The notes under the pieces were generated by a model, which saw only the letters and a list, made by a program, of their open reading frames with translations, searched no databases and was not told where the DNA came from. A program made the translations under genes and the position numbers. Positions 11,501 to 54,350 of a stretch of DNA of 64,000 bases are shown here, one piece after another. Numbering within the stretch: position 1 is the first letter of the stretch; every line of letters begins with the position of its first letter. The stretch covers positions 124,001-188,000 of the forward strand of contig OW568875.1 in the NCBI GenBank assembly GCA_938743325.2, given 5' to 3'. The DNA is from Pycnococcus provasolii (Eukaryota > Chlorophyta > Pseudoscourfieldiophyceae > Pseudoscourfieldiales > Pycnococcaceae).

Positions 11501-14500
11501 CCGCAATCGCGCCTGAAAGAATGCGAACCGTTATTGCAAGCCTTAGGTTCGGCGCAGCGCTGCTGTATCCGTCGTATTCGCTTGGCTGCTTCATCTTGAC
11601 ACTGTGCACGCTCCACTGCTCGGCAGAAAGCTGCCCAGGAACTTGATCGGGCAAATTCAACCTCAGCTTAGTTCGACCCGCCGAAACGCGGAAACGAGTC
11701 GGTTCGTCGTTGCACTTAACAGCCACGATGTACGTCGTGTCTGTTTCCACCTTGATCGCGTCAAGGGATGCACGGTACACGCCATTGATGCCAAATGTCA
11801 CCTCGTCGAAGATCCTGGTCACCTGCTTCGCAATCGCCTCTTTGACGGGAGACCCTTCCACCTCTTCATCCTCAATTTCCTCCTCGCCATCTTTCACCTG
11901 CCTCGCCAGCATGACGAACAAACCTCCCGGTCGATCAGTACCATCGGTGGTGTCCTCGACGTCAAAGGCGTAATTATCGTTGGCTCCCTTGGGAATGTAC
12001 AGCGAGAATAGGCGCAGACCTTGTCCCTCACAGCTGTCGTAGGCGAAGTGACCCTCCACTAGTTCGGTCACCGTTTGCTTCTGCATCGTTTTCTCACCGT
12101 GCGTAAACTGCTCCGTGCACGGCGCCAGCTCCGCGCCATTCACGGCCCTACGTTTCCCCATTCCGTCGTCAATCGACGCTCTCACGGCATACTCGGCACA
12201 GTGCTCGCCACCACGAAGGGCGAGATAGTACCTTTCGTTGAAAAAGTGCTCAATGTCGAGCTGGCAAGCGCGAAAGGTGTGTTGACCCTCGGTTGCGTTG
12301 AGCTTGGCGAAGCGGTACGGAGGCACCAGGCGAATCGGCGGCGTGGAGGGCCGTAGCATGTAGAAGAAGTCGCCGCTGTGCAACTCCACGTCGAATGCGA
12401 GGCTGGCGTGGTATACATCCTTATGGAGCATGCCACCAGGGACATAATCGCTCACATCCACGACGTGGTACACCCAATCACCTGGACAGATCTCGCCGTG
12501 CACGCCTGCTCCACCGGGAACGAGCTGTGCTCGAATCAAGAGAGGGAGTATGCGAAAGCTTGTGGCCACGTCGCCGCACTCCACGGACAAATAGTAAGCT
12601 CCCGCATGCATGTCGTGGTAAGAACGAGAGATTGTCCAAATGCCTTCCGGTGCCATGGTGCGCCGAAATTCCGTTTCGCGGTTCACCGGAATCTCGTCTT
12701 CGTACAGCGAGACGCTCAGCGCATTGAGGCGCAATTCATTCTCAAGGCTGGTTACGTCAATTACGAGATTGGTTTTACTTTGCGCCTCCGAGACGTACAG
12801 CACAAAGTCCTGAAAATTTTGGGTTTTTTTTTGGGAAGGGGAGAAAGTTTAGTCAGTCAAAAGGTTTTTGGAAGAAGGAGGGAAAAACAAAACACGTTTT
12901 CCCGCTCCATAATGCGCACCTTTGTCTCACGCGGTGTGCAGCTTGAATATGTGAAGTGGTCGGGAACAAGCGTCGCAATTCCATGCCCACCAACGTTGGC
13001 GGACAATTCGTGTTCAGGCTCCTTGCACTCGTTTCGATGAGGCAATGTGTGGACGTACAATTCGTAGTCCGCGCACTCGCCCATTCCAATCAAGCCGACG
13101 TAATGACGACCTTCCACGACGTCGCAGAGGGACACGTATGTGCTCGCCTCTCTTGCCGTGCGGAAAGGTGGTAAGAGCTTGAGAGGCGGTTCCCCGTGTG
13201 CTGTCTTGTAAGCCACCCGCCCCGAGTGCAATACGATCTCAAATTTGACGTCAAGGTGCATTCCATCCGCATATGCTGCTGCGGCGGCGGCGGCTCGTCG
13301 TTGTGCCATGCTCGCATCGAAGAAGTGGTAAATAAAATCACCAGGGCACACGTAGCCAACCGCATGTGTGCCTTCTTCCACGGAACCCTCTACAATCTCA
13401 GTGAGCAATCTGAACCTTCTTGGCTCATCGCCGCAGCGGATACTTGCGAAATAATTGACGTCTGCTTTGAAGTCCCACGCATTCAGTGTCACAGAATAGT
13501 GCCCATCTGACGTTTCCGTGCTTTTGAATTCTGTCACGCGATTGCCTGGAATTTCACCCTTGTAGATGAACAGGTTGAGTGCAGACTGCGCAAACCCATT
13601 GCCGAGATCCTCCACCTCAAAAACGACGTTGCAGTCACGCCGCTTCGAATTAGCTGGGAGCATGAAGTCTACCCACTCATGCGGCTTGCAGCTCCCTCTC
13701 ATGAAGTGGTTCACCTCGATTTCCTCCACATTGCCATAGGATTTCTTGCCGCTCGTGCTGTCACCGGCAGTTACCTCGTTGCTGCCTCCTCCGAGTTGTC
13801 GTCGACGATGCAACTCACCCTCGCACTCGCTCAGATCGGCGACGGGTCCTGCGACCATGGACAACTGAAATGCCGCAAAGTGACTCCCTCCCACCACGCC
13901 AAGATATTCCGTGTGGCCAGGCAATACGCATGCCGAAACTGGCATCGGGCTGCCCTCGTAGGCACCGCCGGCGCGATGCTCTTTCACATCGGTGGCTTGG
14001 TACGGAGGAATCATTTTCAGTGGTGGGTTGTCCACCGTGGTGCGCAACATGACATCGCCGCTGAAGAGCTTCACCTGAAAGGTGACTCGATACGGAACGG
14101 TTGACGATGCAGGTACCGTGTAATGGTAGTGCCCCCAATCTCTGGGACCCACCTCGCCGTTGACGACATCGCCTTTTTCGAGAATGGAGTGGCTCAGCTC
14201 GGCCAAGACGCGAAACTGCACCGGTACCTTGCCCGTGCATCTCACCGAGAGAAAGTACTTCGCCGCCTTCAAATCGTGCTCACTCACGACAATGCCCCAG
14301 ATGCCATCAGCCGCGAATTCCGTCTTTATTTCCGTTTCACGGTCGGTGGGAAGTTCGTTTTTGAACAGATAAATGCCGAGAGCTTCGGGGCGAACGACTC
14401 TTGCAAGGTTTTCCACCTGAAAAATCAAGTTTGCTGCTGCATCGTCCTCGCTCACCGTCAGCATAAAGTCCTTGTACTCGCCGGGCGTGCACGAGTGGTA

Positions 14501-16351: not shown

Positions 16352-17128
16352 GCTGCCCCTGCAAGTGCAAGACCCCCACTCGGGACAACGAACGGGGGCA
16401 CACACTGGGATTCTCAAACCCGTCGCAACAAGACAAGCGAAGCACGCACGAAGGGAAGAAAAAGAACAGGCGACTTCGAAAGCTTTCGAAACCAAAGGGG
16501 CCCAAAAGGAAGTTTACACGTGTGATTGGAGAGGGGAGGCCCTTTGCATTGGTGCCCAACCAAGGGGAAATACACTGGGGAGGCAACTCCCCGGATCCCC
16601 GACCAACGCCACTGGAGGGTGAAAAGGTATCCCCGTTCCACATGTTGGTGAGTGGCCCTTTGGCCCCGTTCTGTTCCGCGCTATGTTTGGGCAAGGGGAA
16701 ATAACCTGCTCTACAGAACCAAAAGAAACTACTCACCAACATGTAGAACCCCGAAATCGGCGGAGTTGCCTCCCCATCTCATTTCCCCTTGGCCCAACTA
16801 CCGACCACCTCTACACACCGACCAAACAAACCAGTGGCGGACCCGGGCGGACCGATTCCCGACCTAACTACGATAGATTAAGGTGGTCCACCTAGGGCGT
16901 CGCGTCCAGCTCGCGGCCGAACGTTGTTTTTCTCAGTTGTGATTCAACTGGTATTTTTTAAAGATTTGTCGGATGAATTGGCACCAAAAGTACCGATCAT
17001 CTGTCGTTTTCCCATCGTCGTTCTGCACAGGTTCCCCCCCTGTCTGCCTGTGTCTCGGCGTTTTCTCCGGACATTCCTTCCTAGCTCACTGCACCTAAGT
17101 ACTACGTATTAGATTGGCTACCAGCCGC
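16352..17128. other. intergenic region with fold-back repeat
   Basis: This lies upstream of both the polycystin-type gene (minus) and the acid phosphatase gene (plus), so it should hold both promoters. Besides the fold-back at 16552-16797 I see no gene. Confidence 0.5.
16552..16797. repeat. small fold-back (inverted) repeat
   Basis: Two pairs of inverted segments nest in order. CCAAGGGGAAATACACTGGG with GGAGGCAACTCC at about 16559-16596 faces its near reverse complement at about 16759-16793. CATGTTGGTGAGTGGCC at 16641 faces the complement of ACTCACCAACATG at 16731. Matching is imperfect and the left arm carries an insertion between the pairs. It could be a MITE or fold-back relic; no target duplication was found. 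Confidence 0.6.
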
Positions 17129-18775
17129 ATGTTCATGTTCATGTTCATGTGCCCACGAGGAGCTCGTGCTCCTAGGAGGCTGTGTGTGTGTGTGTTCTCG
17201 CATTATTGTTGGGAGATGTGTGGTGTGGTGTGGTGTGGTGTGGTGGTCGCCCTGTGGAGTCTCTGCGTCCTCTGTGTCTCGGCGCACGAGGGCACGCAGC
17301 CCGCGGCCGTGAGGCTCGCGCTCGGCGACACGCGCGACGCCGTGACGGTGACGTGGGCCACGGCGGAGCCGACGCGAGAGAGCGTCGTGCGCTGGGGCCC
17401 GTTCGGGACGGGCGCGGCAAGGGGGGGCGGGCCGCTCCCCGACGTCGCGCGCGGGGCGCAGCGCAACTTCACGGATGGCGGCGCGGAGAAGAGGTCGCAC
17501 ATGATACACACCGTACGACTCGCCCGTCTCGTGGCCGGGCGGAGGTACTCGTACGTCGCGGGCGACCCGAGCGGCGGGTGGAGCGACGTATTCTCCTTCG
17601 TCGCGCCGCGGAGCGACGAGCAGATCTCCAAGGACGCGCTGCGCATCATCGCGTATTGCGACATGGGCGACACCAACTCCCTCACCCTTGCCGACGTCCA
17701 GGAAGAGGTGCGCCAGAAGAACTACGACATGCTTATCCACTGCGGTGACTTTGCGTACGACCTCGACACGGACAACGGGCGCGTCGGCGACGCGTGGATG
17801 CGCTCTATCGAGCCCGTTTCCGCCTACCTCCCGTACATGGTGAGCCCAGGAAACCACGAGGAGAGCTACAACTTCTCGCACTTCAAGGCGCGCTTCGACA
17901 TGCCGGGCGAGCAGGCACGCGCAACGGACAACCACTACTACTCCTTCGACATGGGCCCCGCGCACATCGTGGCGTACAACACCGAGGCGTTCTTCTGGCC
18001 ACAGCACTTCGACGTCGAGTACATGCGCCGCATGTACAAGTGGCTCGAGGAGGACCTCGCGCGCGCCAACGCGAACCGCCAAGCGGTGCCGTGGATCATA
18101 GTCCACGGTCACCGCCCGATGTACTGCGTCGTGTCGGACCATGTGACGGGGCACTGCGACGGTGAGCAGGAGGCGTCGCGCCGCGGCATACCGTCCGAGT
18201 GCGACGTGGACGATGCGCACCTCTGCTCGGCAGTGGCGTCGGGGGCGAACAGCGCGACCTTTCCTGTGGAGGACCTCTTCTTCAAGTACGGCGTGGACCT
18301 CGCCTTCTACGGCCACGTCCACGACTACGAGCGCTATTGGCCGGTCTACAACGAGACGGTTATGAATGGGACGCACACCGAGCTCGGGTTGTACTACGAG
18401 CCCAAGGCGACGGTGCACGTGACGACGGGCTCCGGCGGGAACCCGGAGATGATCTACGGGCCGAAGTTCTGGAAGCCCCCGCCGCGCGGCCTGTGCACAC
18501 GTGACTCGCCGTGGTGCGCGTTCCAGAGCGGGTACTTCCCGCGGGACGGGCAGATGGCCGACTTTACCTACAGCCGCCTCACTGTGCACAACGCCACGCA
18601 CCTCGACTGGGAGCAGTGGAGCTCCATCGACCACGCCGTTATCGATCGGTTCACCGTCGTGCAGCCGCACCACGGGCCGTTCCCGGGTGCGGGCGACGTG
18701 GCGAAAGAGCGCCTGAGACTGAGACTAAGACGGTTGGGTCCGTCAGATGTCAGCAACCTTAAAACGGACGTCTGA
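17129..18775 (+). CDS. purple acid phosphatase, secreted metallophosphoesterase
   Basis: The product is 548 residues from the ATG at 17129; an ATG at 17216 would give a cleaner signal peptide (MCGVVWCGVVVALWSLCVLC). A fibronectin-like N-terminal domain (DAVTVTWATAEP, SYVAGDPSGGWSDVFSF) precedes the metallophosphoesterase domain. All metal-ligand blocks are visible: CDMGD near residue 177, GDFAYD near 206, GNHE near 240, HGHRPMYC near 325 and GHVHDYER near 394. The enzyme would hydrolyse phosphate esters at acid pH outside the cell or in vacuoles, typical of phosphate scavenging. Base composition stands out: third positions are nearly all G or C, far more so than in neighbouring genes, which also creates a 523-codon antisense shadow frame. 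This could reflect high expression or transfer. Confidence 0.93.
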   Translation: MFMFMFMCPRGARAPRRLCVCVFSHYCWEMCGVVWCGVVVALWSLCVLCVSAHEGTQPAAVRLALGDTRDAVTVTWATAEPTRESVVRWGPFGTGAARGGGPLPDVARGAQRNFTDGGAEKRSHMIHTVRLARLVAGRRYSYVAGDPSGGWSDVFSFVAPRSDEQISKDALRIIAYCDMGDTNSLTLADVQEEVRQKNYDMLIHCGDFAYDLDTDNGRVGDAWMRSIEPVSAYLPYMVSPGNHEESYNFSHFKARFDMPGEQARATDNHYYSFDMGPAHIVAYNTEAFFWPQHFDVEYMRRMYKWLEEDLARANANRQAVPWIIVHGHRPMYCVVSDHVTGHCDGEQEASRRGIPSECDVDDAHLCSAVASGANSATFPVEDLFFKYGVDLAFYGHVHDYERYWPVYNETVMNGTHTELGLYYEPKATVHVTTGSGGNPEMIYGPKFWKPPPRGLCTRDSPWCAFQSGYFPRDGQMADFTYSRLTVHNATHLDWEQWSSIDHAVIDRFTVVQPHHGPFPGAGDVAKERLRLRLRRLGPSDVSNLKTDV

Positions 18776-18858
18776 AATCTGAGATCCTTCATTCAGTAAC
18801 GAAGTGTACTTTACTTACTTTACTCTGTCCAGCGGTTGTCCATTCACACCATTCACTT

Positions 18859-19134
18859 TCACCATTCAGCCCATCCACCGGTGCCATTCACTTGGCGTTT
18901 TTGTACATTGCGCAGGTGATTTCGAAGGTTGTATAACTCTATCAGGGCGCTTTCGTTGGCGTAGTGAGGTCTCCGGTTGCCCCAGTCGATGTAGGTTATC
19001 GCCGCCTCCAACTCCGACTTCATCCTGATAAGCTTGCCACCCTCGTCCTCTCCGACGACGAGTGAATGGCAGGCGGGCGACTCATCTCCACGCTGTACAC
19101 GAGAGCATACCACGTCCTCACGGAGGCGGCGCAT
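18859..19134 (-). CDS. unrecognised short frame beside the duplication breakpoint
   Basis: A 91-residue frame starts at an ATG at 19134 (open back to about 19173). Its composition is protein-like, with segments KLIRMKSELEAAITYIDWGN and ESALIELYNLRNHLRNVQ that would form helices. A possible splice acceptor (GGTATAG) lies upstream, so it might be the last exon of a gene cut by the rearrangement at 19222. No family is recognised. It may equally be chance. Confidence 0.25.
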   Translation of the reverse strand: MRRLREDVVCSRVQRGDESPACHSLVVGEDEGGKLIRMKSELEAAITYIDWGNRRPHYANESALIELYNLRNHLRNVQKRQVNGTGGWAEW

Positions 19135-19221
19135 GCTGTCGCGGTAAGGAAGGGAATTCCTATACCGGGAATGTGTTGGTTATTACAGGAGAACAAAAGA
19201 GAAGAAAAGAAGGGAGAAAGA

Positions 19222-19402
19222 ACATGAGGACGTCGTCCGCTAAAGGCTTTCCTTTGATGATGACTTTCTGGCGGTCGACGGGTACGCCGGTGAGTGTGAA
19301 GAGCTGCGCTTTGAAGACTTGAGACGGCTGGGAGAGGTCGACTTCGATGTCCTTGTAAAGAGTTTTGTTGTGCTTGACGTGGACTTGGATTGTGGACGCC
19401 AT
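19222..19402 (-). pseudogene. truncated copy of USP14 (ubiquitin-like domain only)
   Basis: The ATG at 19402 opens a frame matching the first ~60 codons of the intact gene at 28720, up to LADDVLM, then runs into unrelated sequence and a stop. One short block differs (DIEVDL here, DISINL in the intact gene). The catalytic domain is absent. It keeps most of the upstream region of the intact gene, though part of that has diverged. If expressed it could make a free ubiquitin-like peptide, but decay by truncation is simpler. Confidence 0.9.
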
Positions 19403-20110
19403 GGTTGTGGTTGGCTGCTTGTGGTTGGTTTGTGGTGTGGAAATGATTCGAGAGGGTGGGAGAGGCGGGAACGAAGGGGGAGGTCAAAAACCTACGAAGG
19501 GACGGATGGTTTGCGGACAGTGAGTCATGGCAACCATTGCGTGCTTATTGTCTTGTGTACATCGCCTTGTCCATTTCATCGTTCGATAACCTTGATGCGA
19601 TCTTGAGGTGTAAGTCGAAATTTCGAGCATCATCCCATACCTCTACAACATGCACGATCTCACCGTTCCACCTTTTCTATGCAGCCCCAGTTCGATCCGT
19701 ATGTACTCTTTTCGCGATCTGATGATATTTTCGAATCTCGCAAACACATTCTAACTTTATTGTATTCTTCTCAGTGGGAGGTGACAGACACGTTCTTGAA
19801 ACCATCCGAATTGGCCTTGCAATTACAAAGGCATTCCTCAATTCAGAGTCGCTGTACGTAATCATTTCGCTGATTTCTCGACTTCAAAAAAAAATACCAT
19901 CTCATCGTCCAAATTCCTCTTCCGCAGTTAGCTCAGTTGGCAGAGTATGTCTTATACCTTCATCACATATATACATTACCCAGAACATGATATCTCACTC
20001 TCTCACCAATATAGGCGCAAGACTGAAGCTTTCAGTTCTTTTTTTTTTTTGAAAACGTCGATTGTTTTTGTACGTACGTTGATTCGGGTGCCCTAACCCT
20101 AACTGATGCA

Positions 20111-20225
20111 TATAGATGGACAAATACTGGTATGCGCGAAAACGGTACCGTATATCCCGGTATATACCAATACCGCGGTATATCTGGTATGTACCGCATA
20201 ATATATCGGTACACGTCCATCTATA
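20111..20225. mobile_element. 115 bp MITE with 8 bp target-site duplication, hAT-like
   Basis: The element begins TATAGATGGAC and ends GTCCATCTATA, perfect 11 bp terminal inverted repeats. It is flanked on both sides by the direct octamer CTGATGCA (20103-20110 and 20226-20233). Its inside is rich in GGTATA/TACC palindromes and has no coding capacity. Eight-base duplications are the hallmark of hAT (also P) elements, so it is probably a nonautonomous hAT relative. A TTAGGG-type unit lies immediately upstream. The same insertion is present in the right arm, so it predates the duplication. Confidence 0.85.
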
Positions 20226-20297
20226 CTGATGCAAGACTTCCTACTTCGTCGTCTTCATCCCGCAAGACCACCCTCGACCCCGAAGTGTGATGGTCAG

Positions 20298-20610
20298 AGG
20301 TGGGACCCCAGGCTCGGGAGATTCTCTCAAAGACCTAAAAAAAAAATTTGAGAGCTGTCCCCGAGCCTGCGGTCCTCTTCGACCTGGGGTCGAGAGGGAG
20401 GGGTGTTCGGCTGACTCGACGTGTCGCGCTCCACCGGCCTCTTTCTTCGAGAATGATGGACGGCGGTGGGGCGGGACCGGCTACGTCAGGCGGAACCCCT
20501 GCCGGCCCGAAGGCGGGAACAACTTTCGGAGCTCGAGCGGTGTCGGGGATGAAGCCAGAGATTCAACCTCCAAGGAGGATTGAATCCCCGACTTCCACGT
20601 CCCACCGGTA
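20298..20610. other. GC-rich segment with strong hairpin
   Basis: The segment is bounded by GGTGGGAC and GTCCCACC. Near its left end AGGCTCGGG..CTCTCAAA pairs with TTTGAGAG..CCCGAGCCT (20310-20366) across an A-rich loop, and GACCCCAGG has a second partner CCTGGGGTC at about 20380. No coding frame is convincing. It may be a structured RNA or an old fold-back element; no target duplication is seen. It is mirrored at about 27532-27845. Confidence 0.45.
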
Positions 20611-20975
20611 ATGTGTTGGTTATTACGAAGGGAGAAAGACCGGGATCCCCAGTGACGAAAGCACCAACGACGTATCCCGGACCTCTGTCGGCAAGAAACT
20701 GAAGCCCCTCCCTCTTTAGAACACGTAACTCACTCTAAGCTCGTCTGAGCTCCCTGTTGTCACAAAGTGCGTGAAGACTGAAGACACTATTGGTGACGAC
20801 GGCGGGAGAAAAAGGGTGACAAGAAAGAGTGAAGGTTACAAGGTGGGTATTCCGGGGGTTGTCGTCAAGGGGGTGCTCAGCTGAAGATTGGGATGAGGTG
20901 TTCAGGTAATCAGGTGAGAGATGATCATCCCTCCCAACCCTGTCGCAACCATTCAACGTGCGGATGCGGTTGAGG

Positions 20976-21785
20976 TGTCAGATTCGGTTTTCGCCGATTC
21001 GGATTCGGGATTCGATTCGGTCAGATTCGGATTCTCATATGGCGGCGCGGATTCGGATTCGGGCGCGGTGGCGGCCACGCTTGAGCCGCGCGGGTGGTGG
21101 GACACGACCGCGCCTTTTGCAAGGTGTCGGGATCGACAGCTACCGCCGCCAGCCGCGAGGGGCGCGCCCTGGTTCCCCCTTCCTGATGCTCGGCCACATT
21201 GGCGTTGCCGCACACGTCCTGCCGCCAGTTCCGCTGCTCTAGTATTGCAAGAGTGCTCGACTTGCTCCTCACACCTTCGCTTTTGCCAAAGCCCATCCTC
21301 GCAGGCTTGGTCTTGGGTCGTGGCCGCGAACGGACAGCGTGTGGGACGTGCTCTTCAAGGGGGAGCTTGGTGGAGTTCATTGATGACCTCGAGCGGCAGA
21401 ATAGGGCACTCAACGACTAGGTGATGAGCGCTGGCGACCGCGTTCGCGACACTGAGAAGAAGGTGTTGAAGGAGCGCGACACGTCGCCCGAAGACAGCGC
21501 GGCGGAGTAAGCTGAGGAAGCTCAAGCGCGCATCGCGCAGGAGAAGGAGCTAGCCGTCGTGGCCATGAGTGGGAACTCTACGCCGTTGTAAAAATGATGT
21601 AGCATAAGCTCAACTTACTCGCTTAAGGTGTTGAGCGCCACGCCTCCCTCCTCGCGCATACGACGTATGGCCGCCTGGCACCATCGAATCCGGAATTCGC
21701 CAGATTCGGGTGGATTCGGAATTCGGAATTCGATTCGGGGTGGATTCGGATTCTCATTCTCAGTTCAACCCCGAATAATCTGACA
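20976..21785. repeat. segment with GATTCGG-type repeats at both ends
   Basis: Many copies of GATTCGG/ATTCGGA cluster at about 20976-21065 and 21690-21775, and the outermost bases are inverted (TGTCAGATT left, AATCTGACA right). This looks like the edges of an old DNA transposon, perhaps hAT-like, but flanking octamers do not match, and the inside holds only short frames with stops. It is mirrored at 26364-27167. Confidence 0.4.
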
Positions 21786-21815
21786 AGCTAGCCCAACCCA
21801 TCACATCACTACACA

Positions 21816-22710
21816 ATGCACATGTGTACGGCGGTGTGGGTTAGGCTGTGGCACCGCCTGCTGCGCGCACCCCTCGCGTTTCACGACGCTGGACGGTTCA
21901 GCGGTGTTTGCACTCGCGACAATTTCATATGCACGAGACGCTGGGTACGAATTGGAACATATATCTCTACACGATCGCCACAAGCCTTGGAATGTTCGCG
22001 CTCGTTTGCATCATCGTTCCGCCATTCCTCGCGCTAGCCATTCCCGCCGGCATTCTGTACTGCGCACTGCTGAGCTACTACAGCAGAACTAGCCGTGCGA
22101 CGCAGCGCATTGAGGCTGTGCAGCGCGCGCCGGCGTACGCATTGCTGAGCGAGGCACTCGCAGGGGTTGCCAACGCCTCTTCGCAGCGCACATCTCATCC
22201 GCATGTACGTCAAGGCGATGGCGCGCCGCGTGGACCGTCGCAGTGCTGTGCTATACCACCTGATGAGCGCCAACTGCTGGCTAGGCTTGTCTATTGAGGC
22301 GCTGAGCTCCGCGATCGTTGCATTTGCAGCTTTCGCAAGATCTCGGGATCGCTGACCGCGCATGGTGACAGGCCTTCTCGCCGGCGGCGTTCAGACGGCG
22401 ACGCAGCTAGAGGTGGAAATGAACGCCGTCGAGCGCATTCGAGGCGACGCCGGAGGTGCAGACACTTCGTCTCATGGGCGGTTCTTTTGAAAGACGACGA
22501 CAGCGACGACGAGGGTACGTCGTCGCCGCCGGAGTGGACCCGCAGCAGGAAGATCCTACCAGTGGAAATTGCCCGCAGCGGCGGAGGAAATTCAGCTATG
22601 CCCGTAGCATGGAAAGGCGTCACGGAACACCCACGATGGCTCTGACGTACGTCGCCACGGGTGCTATTGCCATAGCTCGCGTGACGGGTTTTGCTCTTGC
22701 GCTCGGTTGA
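21816..22710 (+). pseudogene. ABCC/MRP-type ABC transporter fragment, frameshifted (left arm copy)
   Basis: Pieces of the second membrane domain of an ABCC transporter appear in order but in different frames: LWHRLLRAPLAFHDAGRFSG; then ETLGTNWNIYLYTIATSLGM with a membrane helix and YYSRTSRATQRIEAVQRAPA; then IRMYVKAMARRV and SANCWLGLSIEALSSAIV; then GLLAGGVQTATQLEVEMNAV with ERI, the conserved end of the domain. At least three frame changes and a stop separate them, and no nucleotide-binding domain (Walker A, LSGGQ) follows, so it is a dead fragment. The right arm has the same breaks, so decay came before duplication. Confidence 0.8.
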
Positions 22711-22749
22711 GTGGGTGCAAACACAGCGCCACGTAAACTTTCGTTCTAG

Positions 22750-23841
22750 TCTATCCATACCACTGTGGGTCACACGGAAGAAGGTGGCTACTTGTCCGAC
22801 GTTCTGCAGTACGTGAAGATGCCGCTCCGGCGCAGCTCGGAATGCGAAGCGGTGTACCCGAGTGGTTCTTACTACGATTACGACGGAAGCGAGGTGGAAT
22901 CTGGATACTCTCTGGAGGCTGAAATCTGCGCCGGTTTCGTCGAAGGAGGCGCAGACTCGTGTCAAGGAGACTCTGGCGGGCCGCTGTATTACACGACGGC
23001 AAGCATAAGTGGCAAGTGCGAATCGTACTACATTGGTACGGTGAGCTGGGGATACGGTTGCGCGAGACCAGAGACGTATGGCGTGTACGCTCGTGCTTCT
23101 GCATACAAATCGTTGATTAAGAGCAGTTTGGAGAGTGCACCAGCAATTACGCCTGGGACGACGCCAACGACGACACCCTCTACTGCTACCGCAACGAATG
23201 GTTCACCAGAGTTGTTCACACCAACAACGACGACGCCAAACATCGCCGACGACAACTCTACCGCCGAATAGACGACGCCGCTGCCGGTGGCGGGAGAAAG
23301 CGAGACGACGCGGGGGAGAAAGCGAGACGACGCCATCGACGCCAACAACGACGCCGTTTACGCCGACGCCAGGGGCACCTTGCAAGCCGGGTTTCGTTGC
23401 CGACTGCAATGGCGTATGCTTTGAAAACGAAATTGTGGAATCGTACAAAGGCGACCTGTACTGCGACGATCCAAATGTACAGCAGATTGAAAGTGCTGCG
23501 GTTACGAAGTGCTACGAAGACATGACTGAGGATTGGGCCCTGCGGGAGCTGTACATGTGCAACCTGACTTACAGTCGATGCACCAGCGGAGAAACTTGCC
23601 ATGGGATGTCAATGGTACGAGCGACGACGCGATGGTGAGTGACTATCGAGACGTGACAGAGACGGAATTCAACAATTTGGTCAGCGAGAGCTGCAGGAAA
23701 GACCTGGAAATGTGCCAGGAAGCATACCTCGACATGGCGAACATGACGGTGAGGCGTTCCTTGTCATCGCAAGCAGTGGGGTGGGCGCCAAACTCCACCG
23801 ACATCGCGGAGATATGGTACCTCGTAAGAAATAAAATGTGA
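22750..23841 (+). pseudogene. trypsin-like serine protease remnant with Thr/Pro linker and Cys-rich tail
   Basis: The frame opens with [20 protein letters not shown] and carries the catalytic-serine block [13 protein letters not shown], with Asp at the base of the pocket (trypsin-like specificity) and [17 protein letters not shown] after it. The His and Asp parts of the triad are missing: the frame has a stop just upstream, at the boundary with the ABCC fragment. A Thr/Pro linker ends in a stop at 23271. Another frame then continues with TPTPGAPCKPGFVADCNG and YKGDLYCDDP, like the Lin-Notch-type Cys motifs of secreted protist proteins, and a third frame runs to 23841. Unseen introns could explain some shifts; 5' truncation cannot be explained that way unless the first exons are elsewhere. 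Confidence 0.7.
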
Positions 23842-23928
23842 AATGACAGGTGAGGTTCAAAGCAGGCTGAGCAGGAGGGACACCTGGGCGGGACTCGGCC
23901 CTTTGGGGATCCGCGCCCTTTTTCCGAT

Positions 23929-24978
23929 ATGTTACCACCTCTTCCCTTCATTCCCACTCGTAACATGGCGTGCTCCCTCCGAGAAAGGACAACCACGCCT
24001 CCCTCCGAGTCATGGATGTCTCTCGCGTACGATGCCCTGCGCGTCTTCGTCAACTGGCAGCGTGAACGTAGGTTAAACAAGGTGCGGGAGCGGAAACAAG
24101 CCGCGCGAACGGCAACTGGACTGCTCGCAGCAGGTGGTGGCGTCTTCTTTGGAGGTCAATCGTTAGCGATACGAGTCGACGGCAGCATCGCGTGTTGGGG
24201 TGGCAACCGACACGGCCAAGCCCCTCCCGACGGCGTTCCGGGAAACTTCGTTGCAATCGCTACGGGTGACGACCACTCTTTGGCACTACGAGTCGACGGC
24301 AGTATCGCGTGCTGGGGACGCAACGATCGCGGCCAAGCCCCTCCCGATGGCGTTCCGGGCATCTTCGTCGCGATTGCAGCGAGTATGTATTACTCGTTGG
24401 CACTACGAGTCGACGGCAGTGTCGCGTGCTGGGGACTGAACGACGACGGCGAGGCACCTCCCGACGGCGTTCCGGGCAACTTCGTCGCAATCGCTGCGGG
24501 TGGGCTTCACTCTTTGGCACTACGAGTCGACGGCAGCATCGCGTGCTGGGGAGACAACTTCGACGGCCAAGCCCCTCCCGACGGCGTTCCGGGAAACTTC
24601 GTCGCAGTCGCTGCGGGTGCAGCGCACTCTTTGGCACTACGAGTCGACGGCAGTATCGCGTGCTGGGGCTGGAACGACGACGGCCAAGCGCCTCCCGACG
24701 GCGTTCCGGGAAACTTCGTCGCAATCGCTGCGTGTGCTAGGTACTCGTTGGCGATACGAGTCGACGGCAGCATCGCGTGCTGGGGAGTAAACGAGAACGG
24801 CGGCGAGGCGCCTCCCGACGGCGTTCCAGGCAACTTCGTCGCGATCGCTGCGGGTTGTCGTCACTCGTTGGCGCTTCGGCACGACGGCAGTGTCGCGTGC
24901 TGGGGCGAAAACAACGCAGGCCAAGCACCTCCCGCTGGCGTCTCTGGTCCATTCAGGGTTACGCAGGCGGACTTGTAG
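23929..24978 (+). CDS. RCC1-repeat beta-propeller protein
   Basis: The product is 349 residues from an ATG at 23929 (another at 23965). After a basic N-terminal part of about 65 residues come seven repeats of 39-40 residues with the pattern SLALRVDGSIACWG.N..GQAPP then DGVPGNFVAIAAG. This is the RCC1/tubulin-suppressor type and is enough for a seven-bladed propeller. No signal peptide is clear. Repeats 1-6 are almost identical even at the DNA level (117-120 bp units), pointing to recent expansion or gene conversion. The role cannot be told: such propellers serve in binding proteins and exchange factors. It sits alone in the spacer of the inverted duplication, so it is single copy. Confidence 0.85.
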   Translation: MLPPLPFIPTRNMACSLRERTTTPPSESWMSLAYDALRVFVNWQRERRLNKVRERKQAARTATGLLAAGGGVFFGGQSLAIRVDGSIACWGGNRHGQAPPDGVPGNFVAIATGDDHSLALRVDGSIACWGRNDRGQAPPDGVPGIFVAIAASMYYSLALRVDGSVACWGLNDDGEAPPDGVPGNFVAIAAGGLHSLALRVDGSIACWGDNFDGQAPPDGVPGNFVAVAAGAAHSLALRVDGSIACWGWNDDGQAPPDGVPGNFVAIAACARYSLAIRVDGSIACWGVNENGGEAPPDGVPGNFVAIAAGCRHSLALRHDGSVACWGENNAGQAPPAGVSGPFRVTQADL

Positions 24979-25204
24979 CGCGTTGCTGGAGAGTGACAGC
25001 GAGTAAATAATAAGCATGTAAATGTAAGCATAGCATTGTAATTTGTTGCATTTGTAATTACAAAATAGAAGCACAAAAAATCCCTGAGATTATTGATGAA
25101 GAGCAAAAAAAAAAATACAGCGTTCAATAGCTTAGCTCCTCACTCACTTTTGCAAATTATTCTATTTGCAAAGCTTTTCATTCAAGCCAATTTTAAGAAA
25201 GAGA
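24979..25204. other. AT-rich 3' flank up to the right inner breakpoint
   Basis: A TGTAAATGTAAGC stretch just after the RCC1 gene may serve as poly(A) signal. The rest is AT-rich with an A run and no gene. At 25205 the sequence switches abruptly into the inverted copy of the trypsin-like remnant. Confidence 0.6.
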
Positions 25205-25382
25205 CGACGAAAGCGTCGCAGATTTCAGCCTCCAGAGAGAATCCAGATTCCACCTCGCTTCCGTCGTAATCGTAGTAAGAACCACTCGGGTACACCGCTT
25301 CGCATTCCGAGCTGCGCCGGAGCGGCATCTTCACGTACTGCAGAACGTCGGACAAGTAGCCACCTTCTTCCGTGTGACCCAC
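25205..25382 (-). pseudogene. trypsin-like fragment cut at the inner breakpoint
   Basis: This copy of the first ~58 residues of the spacer's trypsin-like frame stops at the breakpoint before the serine block and reads into unrelated AT-rich DNA. It lacks every catalytic residue. Confidence 0.8.
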
Positions 25383-25436
25383 AGTGGTATGGATAGACTA
25401 GAACGAAAGTTTACGTGGCGCTGTGTTTGCACCCAC

Positions 25437-26333
25437 TCAACCGAGCGCAAGAGCAAAACCCGTCACGCGAGCTATGGCAATAGCACCCGTGGCGACGTAC
25501 GTCAGAGCCATCGTGGGTGTTCCGTGACGCCTTTCCATGCTACGGGCATAGCTGAATTTCCTCCGCCGCTGCGGGCAATTTCCACTGGTAGGATCTTCCT
25601 GCTGCGGGTCCACTCCGGCGGCGACGACGTACCCTCGTCGTCGCTGTCGTCGTCTTTCAAAAGAACCGCCCATGAGACGAAGTGTCTGCACCTCCGGCGT
25701 CGCCTCGAATGCGCTCGACGGCGTTCATTTCCACCTCTAGCTGCGTCGCCGTCTGAACGCCGCCGGCGAGAAGGCCTGTCACCATGCGCGGTCAGCGATC
25801 CCGAGATCTTGCGAAAGCTGCAAATGCAACGATCGCGGAGCTCAGCGCCTCAATAGACAAGCCTAGCCAGCAGTTGGCGCTCATCAGGTGGTATAGCACA
25901 GCACTGCGACGGTCCACGCGGCGCGCCATCGCCTTGACGTACATGCGGATGAGATGTGCGCTGCGAAGAGGCGTTGGCAACCCCTGCGAGTGCCTCGCTC
26001 AGCAATGCGTACGCCGGCGCGCGCTGCACAGCCTCAATGCGCTGCGTCGCACGGCTAGTTAGGTGCTGTAGTAGCTCAGCAGTGCGCAGTACAGAATGCC
26101 GGCGGGAATGGCTAGCGCGAGGAATGGCGGAACGATGATGCAAACGAGCGCGAACATTCCAAGGCTTGTGGCGATCGTGTAGAGATATATGTTCCAATTC
26201 GTACCCAGCGTCTCGTGCATATGAAATTGTCGCGAGTGCAAACACCGCTGAACCGTCCAGCGTCGTGAAACGCGAGGGGTGCGCGCAGCAGGCGGTGCCA
26301 CAGCCTAACCCACACCGCCGTACACATGTGCAT
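25437..26333 (-). pseudogene. ABCC/MRP-type ABC transporter fragment, frameshifted (right arm copy)
   Basis: This is the mirror copy of 21816-22710 with the same reading-frame breaks. It differs by a small indel at the end of the main membrane segment: the left copy reads YYSRTSRATQ on, while the right copy hits a stop (YYST) there. It is not functional. Confidence 0.8.
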
Positions 26334-26363
26334 TGTGTAGTGATGTGATGGGTTGGGCTAGCT

Positions 26364-27167
26364 TGTCAGATTATTCGGGGTTGAACTGAGAATGAGAATC
26401 CGAATCCACCCCGAATCGAATTCCGAATTCCGAATCCACCCGAATCTGGCGAATTCCGGATTCGATGGTGCCAGGCGGCCATACGTCGTATGCGCGAGGA
26501 GGGAGCGCTCAACACCTTAAGCGAGTAAGTTGAGCTTATGCTACATCATTTTTACAACGGCGTAGAGTTCCCACTCATGGCCACGACGGCTAGCTCCTTC
26601 TCCTGCGCGATGCGCGCTTGAGCTTCCTCAGCTTACTCCGCCGCGCTGTCTTCGGGCGACGTGTCGCGCTCCTTCAACACCTTCTTCTCAGTGTCGCGAA
26701 CGCGGTCGCCAGCGCTCATCACCTAGTCGTTGAGTGCCCTATTCTGCCGCTCGAGGTCATCAATGAACTCCACCAAGCTCCCCCTTGAAGAGCACGTCCC
26801 ACACGCTGTCCGTTCGCGGCCACGACCCAAGACCAAGCCTGCGAGGATGGGCTTTGGCAAAAGCGAAGGTGTGAGGAGCAAGTCGAGCACTCTTGCAATA
26901 CTAGAGCAGCGGAACTGGCGGCAGGACGTGTGCGGCAACGCCAATGTGGCCGAGCATCAGGAAGGGGGAACCAGGGCGCGCCCCTCGCGGCTGGCGGCGG
27001 TAGCTGTCGATCCCGACACCTTGCAAAAGGCGCGGTCGTGTCCCACCACCCGCGCGGCTCAAGCGTGGCCGCCACCGCGCCCGAATCCGAATCCGCGCCG
27101 CCATATGAGAATCCGAATCTGACCGAATCGAATCCCGAATCCGAATCGGCGAAAACCGAATCTGACA
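26364..27167. repeat. mirror copy of the GATTCGG-edged segment
   Basis: Right-arm copy of 20976-21785, with TGTCAGATT at the left and AATCTGACA at the right. It is a few bases shorter than the left-arm copy, near 26505. Confidence 0.4.
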
Positions 27168-27531
27168 CCTCAACCGCATCCGCACGTTGAATGGTTGCGA
27201 CAGGGTTGGGAGGGATGATCATCTCTCACCTGATTACCTGAACACCTCATCCCAATCTTCAGCTGAGCACCCCCTTGACGACAACCCCCGGAATACCCAC
27301 CTTGTAACCTTCACTCTTTCTTGTCACCCTTTTTCTCCCGCCGTCGTCACCAATAGTGTCTTCAGTCTTCACGCACTTTGTGACAACAGGGAGCTCAGAC
27401 GAGCTTAGAGTGAGTTACGTGTTCTAAAGAGGGAGGGGCTTCAGTTTCTTGCCGACAGAGGTCCGGGATACGTCGTTGGTGCTTTCGTCACTGGGGATCC
27501 CGGTCTTTCTCCCTTCGTAATAACCAACACA

Positions 27532-27845
27532 TTACCGGTGGGACGTGGAAGTCGGGGATTCAATCCTCCTTGGAGGTTGAATCTCTGGCTTCATCCCCGA
27601 CACCGCTCGAGCTCCGAAAGTTGTTCCCGCCTTCGGGCCGGCAGGGGTTCCGCCTGACGTAGCCGGTCCCGCCCCACCGCCGTCCATCATTCTCGAAGAA
27701 AGAGGCCGGTGGAGCGCGACACGTCGAGTCAGCCGAACACCCCTCCCTCTCGACCCCAGGTCGAAGAGGACCGCAGGCTCGGGGACAGCTCTCAAATTTT
27801 TTTTTTAGGTCTTTGAGAGAATCTCCCGAGCCTGGGGTCCCACCT
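27532..27845. other. mirror copy of the GC-rich hairpin segment
   Basis: Right-arm copy of 20298-20610; the hairpin falls at about 27777-27833. Confidence 0.45.
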
Positions 27846-27917
27846 CTGACCATCACACTTCGGGGTCGAGGGTGGTCTTGCGGGATGAAGACGACGAAGT
27901 AGGAAGTCTTGCATCAG

Positions 27918-28032
27918 TATAGATGGACGTGTACCGATATATTATGCGGTACATACCAGATATACCGCGGTATTGGTATATACCGGGATATACGGTACCG
28001 TTTTCGCGCATACCAGTATTTGTCCATCTATA
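27918..28032. mobile_element. 115 bp hAT-like MITE, right arm copy
   Basis: Same element as 20111-20225 in inverse orientation, flanked by the octamer TGCATCAG on both sides (27910-27917 and 28033-28040). Carried by the duplication, not a separate insertion. Confidence 0.85.
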
Positions 28033-28719
28033 TGCATCAGTTAGGGTTAGGGCACCCGAATCAACGTACGTACAAAAACAATCGACGTTTTCAAAAAAAA
28101 AAAAGAACTGAAAGCTTCAGTCTTGCGCCTATATTGGTGAGAGAGTGAGATATCATGTTCTGGGTAATGTATATATGTGATGAAGGTATAAGACATACTC
28201 TGCCAACTGAGCTAACTGCGGAAGAGGAATTTGGACGATGAGATGGTATTTTTTTTTGAAGTCGAGAAATCAGCGAAATGATTACGTACAGCGACTCTGA
28301 ATTGAGGAATGCCTTTGTAATTGCAAGGCCAATTCGGATGGTTTCAAGAACGTGTCTGTCACCTCCCACTGAGAAGAATACAATAAAGTTAGAATGTGTT
28401 TGCGAGATTCGAAAATATCATCAGATCGCGAAAAGAGTACATACGGATCGAACTGGGGCTGCATAGAAAAGGTGGAACGGTGAGATCGTGCATGTTGTAG
28501 AGGTATGGGATGATGCTCGAAATTTCGACTTACACCTCAAGATCGCATCAAGGTTATCGAATGATAAGAGGGTAACGTTATGTGTCACTAAACATATTGC
28601 TTGCCATGACTCACTGTCCGCAAACCATCCGTCCCTTCGTAGGTTTTTGACCTCCCCCTTCGTTCCCGCCTCTCCCACCCTCTCGAATCATTTCCACACC
28701 ACAAGCAGCCAACTAAACC

Positions 28720-30189
28720 ATGGCGTCCACAATCCAAGTCCACGTCAAGCACAACAAAACTCTTTACAAGGACATCTCGATAAATCTCTCCCAGCCGTCT
28801 CAAGTCTTCAAGGCGCAGCTCTTCACACTCACCGGCGTACCCGTCGACCGCCAGAAAGTTATCATCAAAGGAAAACCTTTAGCGGACGACGTCCTCATGT
28901 CCACAGTCAAACTTAAGCCAAACATGACGCTCATGCTCATGGGATCGTCGGAAGCCATACCGGAGGCTCCTGCCGTTGAAACTGTCTTCGTCGAAGACCT
29001 TCCCGAGGAGGAGCAGCTTGGTGCACTCATGGGAAACCGATTCAGCGCGGGACTTGCGAACCTCGGCAACACGTGCTACATGAACTCCACGCTGCAGTGC
29101 CTGCGTGTCGTCGAGCCGCTTCGCACCTTGCTCGAGTCCTACCCTAAACCTACAGATTCCGAGGCTCCCACCCCAGACAGCTCCCACCGCCTCACGCTCG
29201 CCACCAAAAACGTCATGGCGGAAATCACGCGCAAAACATCCAAACCAGTCTCCCCCTACATGTTCCTGAACGTGCTCCGCGAGGCGTTTCCGACGTTCGC
29301 GCAGCAGCAGAATGGAATTTACAGCCAGCAGGATGCCGAGGAGTGCTGGACGCAGCTTCTGTACACGCTCAGAACAAGGCTTGGCGAACCGATGGTGGAC
29401 CTGTTTGGAATCGACACGAAAACAGAGCTTGTGTGCGAGGGTGCGCCTGACGAGAAGGAGGTGTACAACACCACCAACTACGTGATGAAGTGCAACATCA
29501 CCATCGACGTGAACCACCTTCACGAGGGCCTGAAGCTCGCGCTGAAGGAGGACAGAGAGAAGCGCAGCACGACGCTCGGCGCGGATGCGATGTTCACCGG
29601 CACGGCGAAGCTGACGAAGCTGCCAAAGTACCTCACCGTGCAGATGATGAGATTCAACACGAAGCGAAACAACGACGGAGAGTTTGTGAAGCAGAAGATT
29701 CTGCGCAGCGTCAGCTTTCCCATGGTGCTTGACGTGTTCGACATGTGCGACGCGGCATACCAGGAGGAGATCAAGGATGCGCGCGATTCGTTGCGCGAGA
29801 TGGAGGAGGTGAAGGCTGGCTTGCACGGCGGCGAAGCCGCCGCCGCCGCCGCATCTGGAGATGCGATGGAGGTGGAGAAGCCGACGCCGAGCCGAGTCAC
29901 GGGTCAGTACGAGCTCGTGGCTGTGCTGACGCACAAGGGACGAAGCTCGGATGCTGGACACTACGTGGGATGGGTGCGTGAGGAGGAGCAGCAGCAGAAG
30001 GATGCGGCGGCGTCGGCAGAGCAGAACGCTGCGAAGCGATCAAAGAAAGGTGACGACGGCGCGCCTGGATGGGTGAAGTTTGACGACGACACGGTGAGTG
30101 CCGTGACGTCGGACGAGGTGCTTCGCCTTCACGGAGGAGGTGACTGGCATATGGGCTACCTGTTTTTGTATCGCGCGAAGCTTGGTTAA
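28720..30189 (+). CDS. USP14: USP14/Ubp6-type proteasome-associated deubiquitinase
   Basis: The product is 489 residues, intronless, with an ATG in good context (AAACCATGG). An N-terminal ubiquitin-like domain (about 1-75) that docks on the proteasome is followed by the USP catalytic domain. The Cys box is GLANLGNTCYMNSTLQC with the catalytic Cys near residue 119, and the His box is GRSSDAGHYVGWVRE near 412. The C-terminus is GYLFLYRAKLG. Length and order match USP14/Ubp6, which trims ubiquitin chains from proteasome substrates. A variable Ala/Glu-rich insert lies near 365-390. TGTAAC follows the stop by about 25 bases. The first ~60 codons and the upstream region fall in the right arm of the inverted duplication, so they exist twice. 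Confidence 0.95.
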   Translation: MASTIQVHVKHNKTLYKDISINLSQPSQVFKAQLFTLTGVPVDRQKVIIKGKPLADDVLMSTVKLKPNMTLMLMGSSEAIPEAPAVETVFVEDLPEEEQLGALMGNRFSAGLANLGNTCYMNSTLQCLRVVEPLRTLLESYPKPTDSEAPTPDSSHRLTLATKNVMAEITRKTSKPVSPYMFLNVLREAFPTFAQQQNGIYSQQDAEECWTQLLYTLRTRLGEPMVDLFGIDTKTELVCEGAPDEKEVYNTTNYVMKCNITIDVNHLHEGLKLALKEDREKRSTTLGADAMFTGTAKLTKLPKYLTVQMMRFNTKRNNDGEFVKQKILRSVSFPMVLDVFDMCDAAYQEEIKDARDSLREMEEVKAGLHGGEAAAAAASGDAMEVEKPTPSRVTGQYELVAVLTHKGRSSDAGHYVGWVREEEQQQKDAAASAEQNAAKRSKKGDDGAPGWVKFDDDTVSAVTSDEVLRLHGGGDWHMGYLFLYRAKLG

Positions 30190-30984
30190 GAAAAAAGGAA
30201 AAACGACGTAACAGTCTGTAACAAGAAAGATTTTTTCGTCAACAAAAAGTGAAGGTGAGGTGAGGTCAGGTCGTGACGACGACGGACTTTGCGGCAGCGC
30301 AGAGTCGTTCGTTAGCACACGACTTTTCGCAGTCACGCCAAAAACTGGAATCCTTTTATGGGTTTCTCTTTGTTGTACTTTTCCCTACCTACTTATTATT
30401 ATATCCGCCTAAGTAAGTCAACGACGTCGTCGCCGTGCACACGCGCTCACAATAATCATGTTGTTTCTTTTGGAGAGAGTTTACCTAGGGTAGGGGTTTC
30501 ATTTTTTTTTTGGATTCAGAGTTTTCTATCCAAAACCCAAGCCGGACCAGCAAGCCGGACCTTCTAGCCGGACCCCAAAGGACAGGCCAGGCCACAAATG
30601 CACCAAGCAACGGTGTATCCCCCAAGGCGGGTGAAAAAAAGACCGGAGTTTGTTTGGCCCAAGGACCTTATTCACCCTCGGCCCCTCCGCCCGTTATTTG
30701 TTCGCCATTTATTTCATGCGAAACATGTCACGCCTCCTGCATGTGTTTGTGAGTGAGTGCCCAGTGGTGGTTCGGAGTAGTGCAGCCAGCTTACTACTTT
30801 TGCAGGCTTGTATGGTACCTTGGCTCCTTTCGTTCATTGATTGGCTCGTTCATTGATTCGTCCTCATCAATCACTGCACGCGTTGGTCGGTTGGTCCTCA
30901 TCATACCTGATAGATAGGCAGCGCGCAGGCGTTTGTTGATTGGCTCATACAAAACAGTATACCATAATAGTGGTAGTAACGAAG
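30190..30984. other. gene-free stretch
   Basis: This is the 3' flank of USP14 and the upstream region of the tyrosine-rich protein gene. A short triple repeat of AAGCCGGACC lies near 30538-30580. No gene seen. Confidence 0.5.
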
Positions 30985-33426
30985 ATGATGACGACGAATG
31001 TCAGGAACATGCGATCGATCGTCACGGCGTCATCAGCCGTTCTGGTCGCTCTGCTTGCTGTCGTCGTAATGCTAAGTGCCGTGAGTGGTGTGAGCGCAGA
31101 CAAATCGACGACGACGACTTATGAGACGACGAAGTACGTTGATGAATACAACTCAGGCTACTACGGTGATGAATACAAATCAGGCTACTATCCCAAGTAC
31201 AAGTGGTGGGCGCCGTGGACGTGGAAGTACAGCAGCAACAAGTACAATGACAACAAGTACGACTCTGGATACGACTCTGGATACAGCAAGTACGGCTCTG
31301 GATACAGCAAGTACGGCTCTGGATACAGCAAGTACGACTCTGGATACGGCTACAGCAAGTACGACTCTAAATATGGAGTTGGGCCGTACTATGGGAAGCA
31401 GTACGAGCAGGACGAGCACTACCCGTGCGACACGTTCTACCCCAAGCCGAAGTGGTACTCGCCGTTTACATGGAAGTATCGCAAGTATGCCAAGTTTGAC
31501 TACTACTCTGGTCCTTGCGAAGTAAAGAAGGAAGAACACTGTCTTCCCTTCTGGGGAAAAGATCTTCCTCATGATGCGAGTGAAGCTACTTGGTACACTG
31601 TCACTTACGCTTCTGGTGGTGGTGGGTGCCATGGCGGTGCCAAAAATAAATACTTCTATGCGAAGTCAGAAGCGCATGGCTTGACGTTCACTCTCACGAA
31701 TTACTACTACAACAATGAAAAGTGGGTATGTGCGATTGACGATATCAGCCGCAAGAGTGCAATTTGTACGATGGCTGGACACTTTGGAGGAAGCTATTCT
31801 ACACCTGAAAAGTGCATCCTTACGTTTAAAACGCATCAAAAGGGTGGAAAGTGCATTCCACACCACATGGAACTCGACTGTGGGAAGCCACCGTACGTTG
31901 AAACGAGCAAATTCAGCAAGATTGACTACCGTGACATTCCCCAAAAGGACATCATTCAGCAAGATCTCGAGGAGTGCAATACTTGTGATAAAAGTACCTT
32001 GCTGTCGCTTGGTGGTACCAAGTATACCTCGTGCGACCCCGAGCCATTCGAAGGGAAGGAAACTATCTTCCTCTCCAATGTCGCGGATGACATCAGGGAT
32101 GTTCTCAGCGGCGATCCTACCAACGTCACCGTCGTGTCATTCCCGTGCATGACTACCTCGTCCCAGAGTTTATTTTTTTTTGTTTTTGGATCTGAATTCC
32201 CAAATCTTGCGGAGGTTCGCTTCGCCAACTGGGTGACAGGACCGGACGGTTTTTTCAGGGTACGTACGCTCCTCCTTCCTTTCCTTTCTCATCTTCTTCT
32301 TCGTGCTCTGCCTTATTATGTTCTTCTACAATAATATCGCGTGTCTTCGACAGAACACACACATTCCATTTGGTAGCACCTCACTAACAAACCAATCACA
32401 TATTCACAACAACACAACAACCATTCGTCGTATCATCAAACAACAAACAACAAATAACAACAACAACAATAGTTCGTGGACTCTGCCTCTTTGACGAGTA
32501 TCTACGCGCCTCGTCTTGAGGGTAACTCGAACCTGAACGTCCAAGTACGTATCCGCTTTGAAGAGCCATAATCGACTTTTCAACTGATTGCACAAAACTC
32601 ACCATGTACTCACCACTCAACGACACATATACAACACACACCTCTCTAAACACACAGATCCGAGGCAACCCGAATCTCGCAGAGGTGGACTTGTGTGCGC
32701 TGATGGAGGCGTTTGAGATCGACGTACGTCTCACTTTCTCCCACAACAACAACAACACCAAAACTTACAGTACCACCTTTCAATCCAAACGAAACAACAA
32801 CAGATCCGCGAAAACCCGAATCTCGCAAAGGTGGACTTGTCTGCGCTGATGGAGGCGAGAGATATCGACGTACGTCTCACTTTCTCTTGTCTTTTGATTC
32901 CTTGTTTTTTGTGTGTTCTTCCATAACAAATCGTATCACTCACTGGATGTGAAATTCACTCACTCACTCTTCCTTGCAAAAATGCAACTACAAACAAAAC
33001 AACAGATAAGCACCAATCGTCAACTCGTCGACGTCAACCTACCGGCGCTGAGGACGGCGATAGACAACTTCGCCGTACGTGACAACCCATCACTGACCAC
33101 CACACTTTGTGCACTGCCATTTTCCCTCTGACAATCTACCCCTTCCAACCTTACAGGTATACGGCAATCCCAAGCTCAGGAAACTCTGCGCATCCGAGCT
33201 TGAAGGATCAGTAGGAGGCTTTGTGTGCATCGGCAAGGAGCAACCAGATCTCGACGCGGACCTTAGCTCGCTGGTGACTGGATCTTTGAATAGTTTTGAT
33301 GCTTGCCTGTACGACATGACTAACAGGATTGATGCTGCCACAGTCTGCGGAGTGGACCCAGAAGGTCTCTTCTCCACATTGGGATGCCCGTCCAAGGCAT
33401 GCAAAAAATCCAAAAAAAACCCGTGA
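30985..33426 (+). CDS. secreted tyrosine-rich protein with leucine-rich repeats (six exons)
   Basis: The spliced product is about 605 residues. A signal peptide (MRSIVTASSAVLVALLAVVV) is followed by a Tyr/Lys/Ser/Gly region with tandem GYSKYGSGYSKYGSGYSKYD units, then Cys-containing segments, then short leucine-rich repeats of the form (I)R.NPNLA.VDL.AL. The repeats largely occupy one small exon each: exon 1 30985-32259, exon 2 32473-32544, exon 3 32658-32723, exon 4 32804-32869, exon 5 33006-33074, exon 6 33157-33426. All five introns are phase 0, begin GTACGT and end AG. The LRR part resembles receptor-L or BspA-like repeats. Tyr-rich repeats are seen in wall, cement and adhesive proteins, so an extracellular structural or sticking role is a fair guess. 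The C-terminus is Cys/Lys-rich. Start: ATG at 30985 or 30988. Confidence 0.82.
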
Positions 33427-53778: not shown

Positions 53779-54350
53779 GAACGGTATGCGACGTGAGAGA
53801 GGTGTTGCCAAGACGACGACCGGCTGACCGGGAGGGGACGTTGTCTTGTGGGCAAGGGCAAGGGAGCTCCGGATTGGCGTCCCAGGGTTAACGGCCTCGC
53901 CTCGGGTTAGGGTTAGGGTTAGGGTTAGGGTTAGGGTTAGGGGCTAGAGGCCTTGGCAGGCTGGGGCACTCTGGCTGGGGCTGGCCTAACCCTAACCCTA
54001 ATGGTTATTACTCCGCACTATCCATTAAAGGTACAGTATTATTGAAGACGGCCCAGTCGAAAAATGAACACGGCCCAGTCGAAAACTAAGGCTAAGACGG
54101 CCCAGTCGAAACCTGAAAAAGGTGAAAAATGACCACGGAAAAGTCGACGAGTTAAGGCGAGGGTAACCCATATCATCACATAGTCTATGGAGTGCGCGCT
54201 TGCGTGGGATAATAAACCAGATGAAGGATCACGTGATGCTCTGATTGCTGCTGATTATCAAAAGCAAACTCCAGGGCTCCACCTGGCCGGCATATTCATC
54301 TGGTTTCGGCGTCTTAGTTTAATCCAAACAACTCCACGACGCGTTCGGAA
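53779..54350. promoter_or_regulatory. shared divergent upstream region with telomere-like arrays and a thrice-repeated motif
   Basis: Between the Sfi1-like gene (minus) and the RING-CH gene (plus). It holds six tandem TTAGGG units at 53904-53943 and a CCCTAA array at 53985-54001 in the opposite sense. The motif ACGGCCCAGTCGAAA is then repeated exactly three times at 54048, 54070 and 54097, with a decayed fourth near 54134. The repeated motif in a bidirectional promoter may be a protein-binding site; this is inferred. Confidence 0.5.
53904..53943 (+). repeat. perfect interstitial TTAGGG array
   Basis: Six uninterrupted TTAGGG units. A short CCCTAA array in inverse orientation follows about 40 bases on (53985-54001). 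Confidence 0.9.

Follow-up and report, generated by a model that had tools for sequence, protein, structure and literature searches.

A 3.7 kb inverted repeat beside a USP14-like gene in Pycnococcus provasolii, with a near-identical core and a composite spacer

Three known systems resemble the locus described here most closely. In the palindromes of the human Y chromosome, gene conversion from arm to arm is documented, and the arms of palindrome P8 measure 37-38 kb (PMC6790999). Fold-back duplication after DNA breaks has been shown in yeast (PMC10622511), and inversions with staggered breaks leave inverted duplications on both sides of a segment in Drosophila (PMC5080602). A longer spacer would make an inverted duplication more stable (PMC7999016). 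The present locus resembles the Y palindromes, for example P8, in its high-identity inverted arms, its kb-sized spacer, a proposed arm-to-arm conversion and later structural change. In contrast to P8, its arms span 3.7 kb and the case for conversion comes from a single genome; moreover, no sex chromosome is known here. With the fold-back duplications that follow double-strand breaks in yeast and in cancers (PMC10622511) it shares the inverted copy of a segment and secondary rearrangements, but its centre appears to have given way to deletions and an RCC1-like copy, and a founding short inverted repeat is not visible. The Drosophila duplications likewise place inverted copies around a segment (PMC5080602); at the present locus, however, a single copy inverted once does not account for the orientations of the spacer pieces, provided that the order seen in a relative on contig C11 is ancestral.

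The window, i.e. the whole stretch of 64,000 nucleotides that was analysed, comprises positions 124001-188000 of contig C15 in a genome of 32.3 Mb in 46 contigs and contains a eukaryotic gene set with long open frames. Comparison of the window with itself paired 19222-22942 with 28900-25205 in inverted orientation over 3723 aligned columns at 98.44% identity. Two inverted arms of high identity thereby enclose a spacer of 2262 bases, giving the locus the form of a palindrome, and both the arms and the 2.26 kb spacer lie where a first-pass annotation of the window had located them. Chance is excluded as the source of this pair, because the next inverted pairs in the window span just 105 and 102 columns (E<=1e-10, more than 100 columns); no other long one is present. 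The 105-column pair, 97% identical and situated within 59611-60383, is perhaps another small element. At their inner ends the annotated limits of the arms are correct only roughly: homology stops at 22930 and 25217, and from there on it is C11, not the left arm, that the right arm matches. The homologous parts are 19222-22930 (forward strand) and 25217-28900 (reverse strand).

The right arm is continuous with an open USP14-like gene (28720-30189, forward strand) of 489 amino acids, which contains a Pfam UCH domain (E 6.7e-53) and a ubiquitin domain and has USP14 as its best match among solved structures (5gjq, E 3.5e-94). In the left arm, a 5′ fragment of the gene (19222-19404, reverse strand) retains 60 codons, after which 20 codons without relation to the gene lead to a stop that lies in the flank; it matches USP14 residues 1-61 at 93%. 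These findings agree with the annotated cut of USP14 after about 60 codons on the left and with a full gene on the right, the latter being the sole full copy among five matches in the genome (all 16 candidates scored; none of the other three is full-length). Over the 60 shared codons the arms differ by three single-base changes (codons 31, 47 and 52), all of them synonymous, and by a block at codons 20-22 that changes three residues. Such changes could have arisen on the right copy as the working one, or on both copies as long as both ends still encoded protein, or they could separate two alleles.

The repeat could also be an assembly or haplotype artefact, in which two haplotypes of one locus were fused head to head or both arms were given the same consensus. 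This would account for an identical core and for differences of allelic type at the end towards USP14, and both the synonymous single-base differences, as between working alleles, and a core that is identical over approx. 2 kb are in line with it. Nevertheless, we consider an artefact unlikely, since the core retains two differences and since the copied filler, the RCC1-like copy in the spacer and the occurrence of C11-like pieces in either orientation, all described below, resemble a real rearrangement. A second structure of this kind on contig C44 also speaks against it, although a systematic artefact could have produced both.

According to the first-pass annotation, one intact gene is preserved by each arm, a different one on either side; in fact USP14 alone is intact. 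The trypsin-like piece on the left (22750-23797, forward strand), directly following an ABC transporter remnant, is itself a remnant. Of the 220 positions in the Pfam trypsin profile it matches only 127-220 and is missing the first half of the domain; its 3′ end is absent as well, likeness to C11 being lost at 23797. Where it can be compared with the C11 copy (23221-23797, 96.6% identity), it carries an in-frame TAG at 23269, which is CAG in C11, together with one 11-base and one 4-base gap. Relatives that are 67-70% identical reside in open frames of 899 and 1332 amino acids on contigs C5 and C14.

The description of the arms as near-identical is correct for their overall pairwise identity, but this identity is distributed unevenly. 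Among the 361 outermost columns, on the USP14 side (19222-19582, forward strand), 52 differ (31 mismatched, 21 gapped), compared with 9 of 3326 columns (1 mismatched, 8 gapped) in the core (19583-22906, forward strand) and 3 of the innermost 36 arm columns. The core differences amount to one 6-base gap and one 3-column change. When differences no more than 10 bases apart are merged into clusters, six clusters in 361 outer bases stand against two in 3324 core bases (Fisher p = 2e-5, an optimistic value as the boundary between outer end and core was set after viewing the alignment). Two of the outer clusters (19337-19345 and 19534-19581) are block changes that account for the bulk of the differing columns. 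Substitutions outside such blocks, counted by hand, numbered 4 in about 300 outer bases and 1 in 3317 core bases (p = 2e-4), or strictly 3 and 0, as positions 19409 and 22086 adjoin gaps. A search of 17000-31000 on either strand revealed no template for the two block changes longer than expected by chance, and when 23 bases from either version of the larger block were sought, the genome contained no second site at up to three mismatches. The simplest reading of the uneven identity, judged from the alignment, suggests recent gene conversion from arm to arm over an older duplication. The duplication is thus probably older than its identity implies, and the two core differences must either postdate conversion or lie outside its tracts.

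Conversion of the core would also affect the interpretation of the elements embedded in it. A MITE-like element, recognised by eye at 20111-20225 (20103-20233 with its flanks, forward strand), has the ends TATAGATGGAC and GTCCATCTATA and CTGATGCA on either flank, and partial copies of it occur on other contigs. The ABC transporter remnant (21830-22590, forward strand), assigned to ABCC by the first-pass annotation, has main blocks that agree with C12 at 92-95% identity; its match to Pfam ABC_membrane (E 1.1e-5, 25.7 bits) falls below the curated cut-off of 28. Because both arms share these decayed elements, the event had been taken as recent relative to their decay. This dating fails if the core has been homogenised, as the divergence step suggests. 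A further repeat fragment in the arm (20253-20595, forward strand) is 99-100% identical to C26, where the copy at 563253-564299 has an additional 0.7 kb in its middle that is absent from the window. No tRNA was detected in 19200-23000 of the arm by ARAGORN with introns allowed, and a hidden RNA gene in the same interval was rejected as all seven Rfam matches at E<=5 remained below their gathering scores. Telomere-like repeats of the TTAGGG type gave 16 matches in the window at up to one mismatch versus 0.06 expected (4751, 20091, 28041, 36112, 42110, 53907-53942, 53984-54001, 59562, 60221 and 63522), one pair of them located in the arms.

The inner ends of the arms can be read against the C11 locus (L074). 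There, a SNF2-like gene (Pfam SNF2-rel_dom) converges with a frame of 614 residues, which has no Pfam match and comprises the 3′ half of the trypsin gene, its stop codon and, by eye, a membrane helix. Besides the trypsin-like stretch, the window matches C11 at 23796-23875 (96.3%), 23886-23916 (96.8%) and 24979-25219 (97.5%). The first two of these, together 23796-23916 on the reverse strand, correspond to the first codons of the SNF2-like gene together with its 5′ flank; the third, on the forward strand, contains its last codons, the intergenic stretch and the trypsin stop codon. On the left inner side, the trypsin gene is joined to the SNF2-like 5′ end with two shared bases and a loss of 3.47 kb relative to C11. 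On the right, the SNF2-like 3′ end and the trypsin stop codon are followed by the arm, whose trypsin fragment joins this C11-like 3′ end with three shared bases and a loss of approx. 1.9 kb. Two to three shared bases at joins are common by chance. C11-like pieces flank the spacer on both sides and in both orientations, the trypsin 3′ part and the SNF2-like 5′ end reading one way and the SNF2-like 3′ end, which lies between them in C11, reading the other way.

With C11 as a stand-in for the ancestral order, the evidence favours the annotated succession of USP14, arm and trypsin, and the SNF2-like gene can be added to it on the inner side. In contrast, the copies did not simply lose the opposite flank, as annotated: an internal loss in the right arm has spared the stop codon of the trypsin gene and its 3′ flank, and a separate internal loss has affected the left copy. 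From these complementary losses we infer that the original duplication probably reached further inward; no part of the C11 unit outside the arm survives in both copies. As the core is so alike in the two arms, crossing-over between them could flip the spacer, and the pairing of inner ends with outer flanks is therefore not fixed and may differ from the original.

The orientation of the spacer pieces bears on a small inversion with staggered breaks, the stagger having duplicated the arm in inverted orientation as in Drosophila. It has the appeal that one step gives inverted copies around an inverted segment (PMC5080602), but we regard it as quite improbable: if the C11 order is ancestral, pieces in opposite senses come from interleaved places, and the inversion of a single copy would need further events to arrive at such orientations. 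The C11 locus also shows that pieces of the segment exist at a second place, as would be the case if a second, inverted copy had been inserted from elsewhere and had then suffered losses. Such an insertion seems very unlikely to us, since the 10 kb of C11 examined contained the four window matches but neither the arm nor USP14, searches with three arm stretches found no third long arm copy (for one of them among the best 40 of 298 candidates), and the outer flanks, inspected by eye, share no target-site repeat. A composite transposon with inverted ends was rejected on this last ground.

Between the C11-like pieces, the spacer is occupied by an RCC1-like stretch (23993-24978, forward strand, in an open frame of 23854-24978) that belongs to a dispersed family and is cut directly after its stop codon. 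At least 38 further places and one fragment represent the family (43 matches among the best 40 of 145 candidates), the copies listed being 75-86% identical and spread over many contigs. Pairs among the loci L036, L038, L039, L041 and L042 remain alike for up to about 190 bases downstream of the stop codon, but the likeness of the window copy to these five ends at the stop; that of L037 also ends nearby.

On the outer left side, a purple acid phosphatase-like gene (17129-18775, forward strand; Pfam Metallophos, Pur_ac_phosph_N and Metallophos_C) is followed, three bases past its stop codon, by the end of an abundant dispersed LINE-like repeat (18779-18980, reverse strand; 38 among the best 40 of 298 candidates). 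The repeat has a common end and a variable other end: one end of locus L016 is common to the window and 17 further loci, and starts range from 1019 to 1501. The junction itself consists of 52 bases of filler (19170-19221, forward strand), in which 17 bases identical to arm positions 20610-20626 and 13 bases identical to 20627-20639 enclose 22 purine-rich bases. The 17-mer has three sites in the genome, namely the junction and the two arms, against none for its reversed control. In random blocks, an equally long local match was obtained in 0 of 300 cases for the 17-mer and in 4 of 300 for the 13-mer. Copied filler at junctions is a usual trace of template switching. Together with the two and three shared bases at the inner joins, it constitutes a signature of template switching, not proof of the mechanism.

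Fold-back replication, inverted insertion of a second copy and mis-joined haplotypes, the origins offered by the first-pass annotation, are all possible. The history that we lean towards, and hold to be somewhat probable on the arrangement of the sequence, is an old inverted duplication through template-switching break repair, whose centre was later shortened and occupied by the RCC1-like copy and whose core was converted. Break repair with template switching would have duplicated a segment of USP14, arm, trypsin and SNF2-like gene in inverted orientation. Losses in both copies would have shortened the centre and the RCC1-like copy would have moved in, resulting in the asymmetric spacer. Sequence exchange between the arms by gene conversion would then have rendered 3.3 kb of core near-identical, while the USP14 end kept older differences.

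A comparable structure exists elsewhere in the genome. Self-comparison for inverted pairs covered 65 of 76 loci (227,807 bases, some overlapping); the 11 excluded loci are all on C15, ten at the window locus and one, L022, elsewhere. As these loci were chosen for likeness to the region and mostly measure about 3 kb, the survey provides no rate and misses widely spaced arms. In locus L004, stretches of 300 bases paired in inverted orientation at 99% identity, and three other loci contained pairs of 64-106 columns. Widening of L004 (L077/L078) revealed that C44:8028-10412 pairs with 12066-14439, with arms of 2.4 kb at 99.2% identity around a spacer of 1653 bases. An ABC transporter-like piece, for which the locus had been taken without a repeat being sought, ends at the arm boundary. 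The 20 differing columns out of 2385 are situated near the ends and in the middle without a clear step between the two, so that the C44 pair speaks for such structures recurring in the genome but lends no support to conversion.

It is a tentative and rather doubtful generalisation, drawn from two cases, the window and C44, in a small non-random sample, that in this compact eukaryotic genome template switching gives rise to kb-sized inverted duplications time and again, and that these persist as palindromes stabilised by their spacers and with converting cores. If it is true, a scan of the whole genome should find many such structures, one of which has caught the promoter and 5′ end of USP14. 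On the reading preferred here, neither the identity of the arms nor the decayed elements that they share would date a duplication of this kind well: the ends and the outside relative on C11 point to an earlier origin than the core does. If confirmed by reads, the locus would offer a compact natural case for studying the origin of inverted duplications, the loss of their centre and their conversion away from known sex chromosomes.
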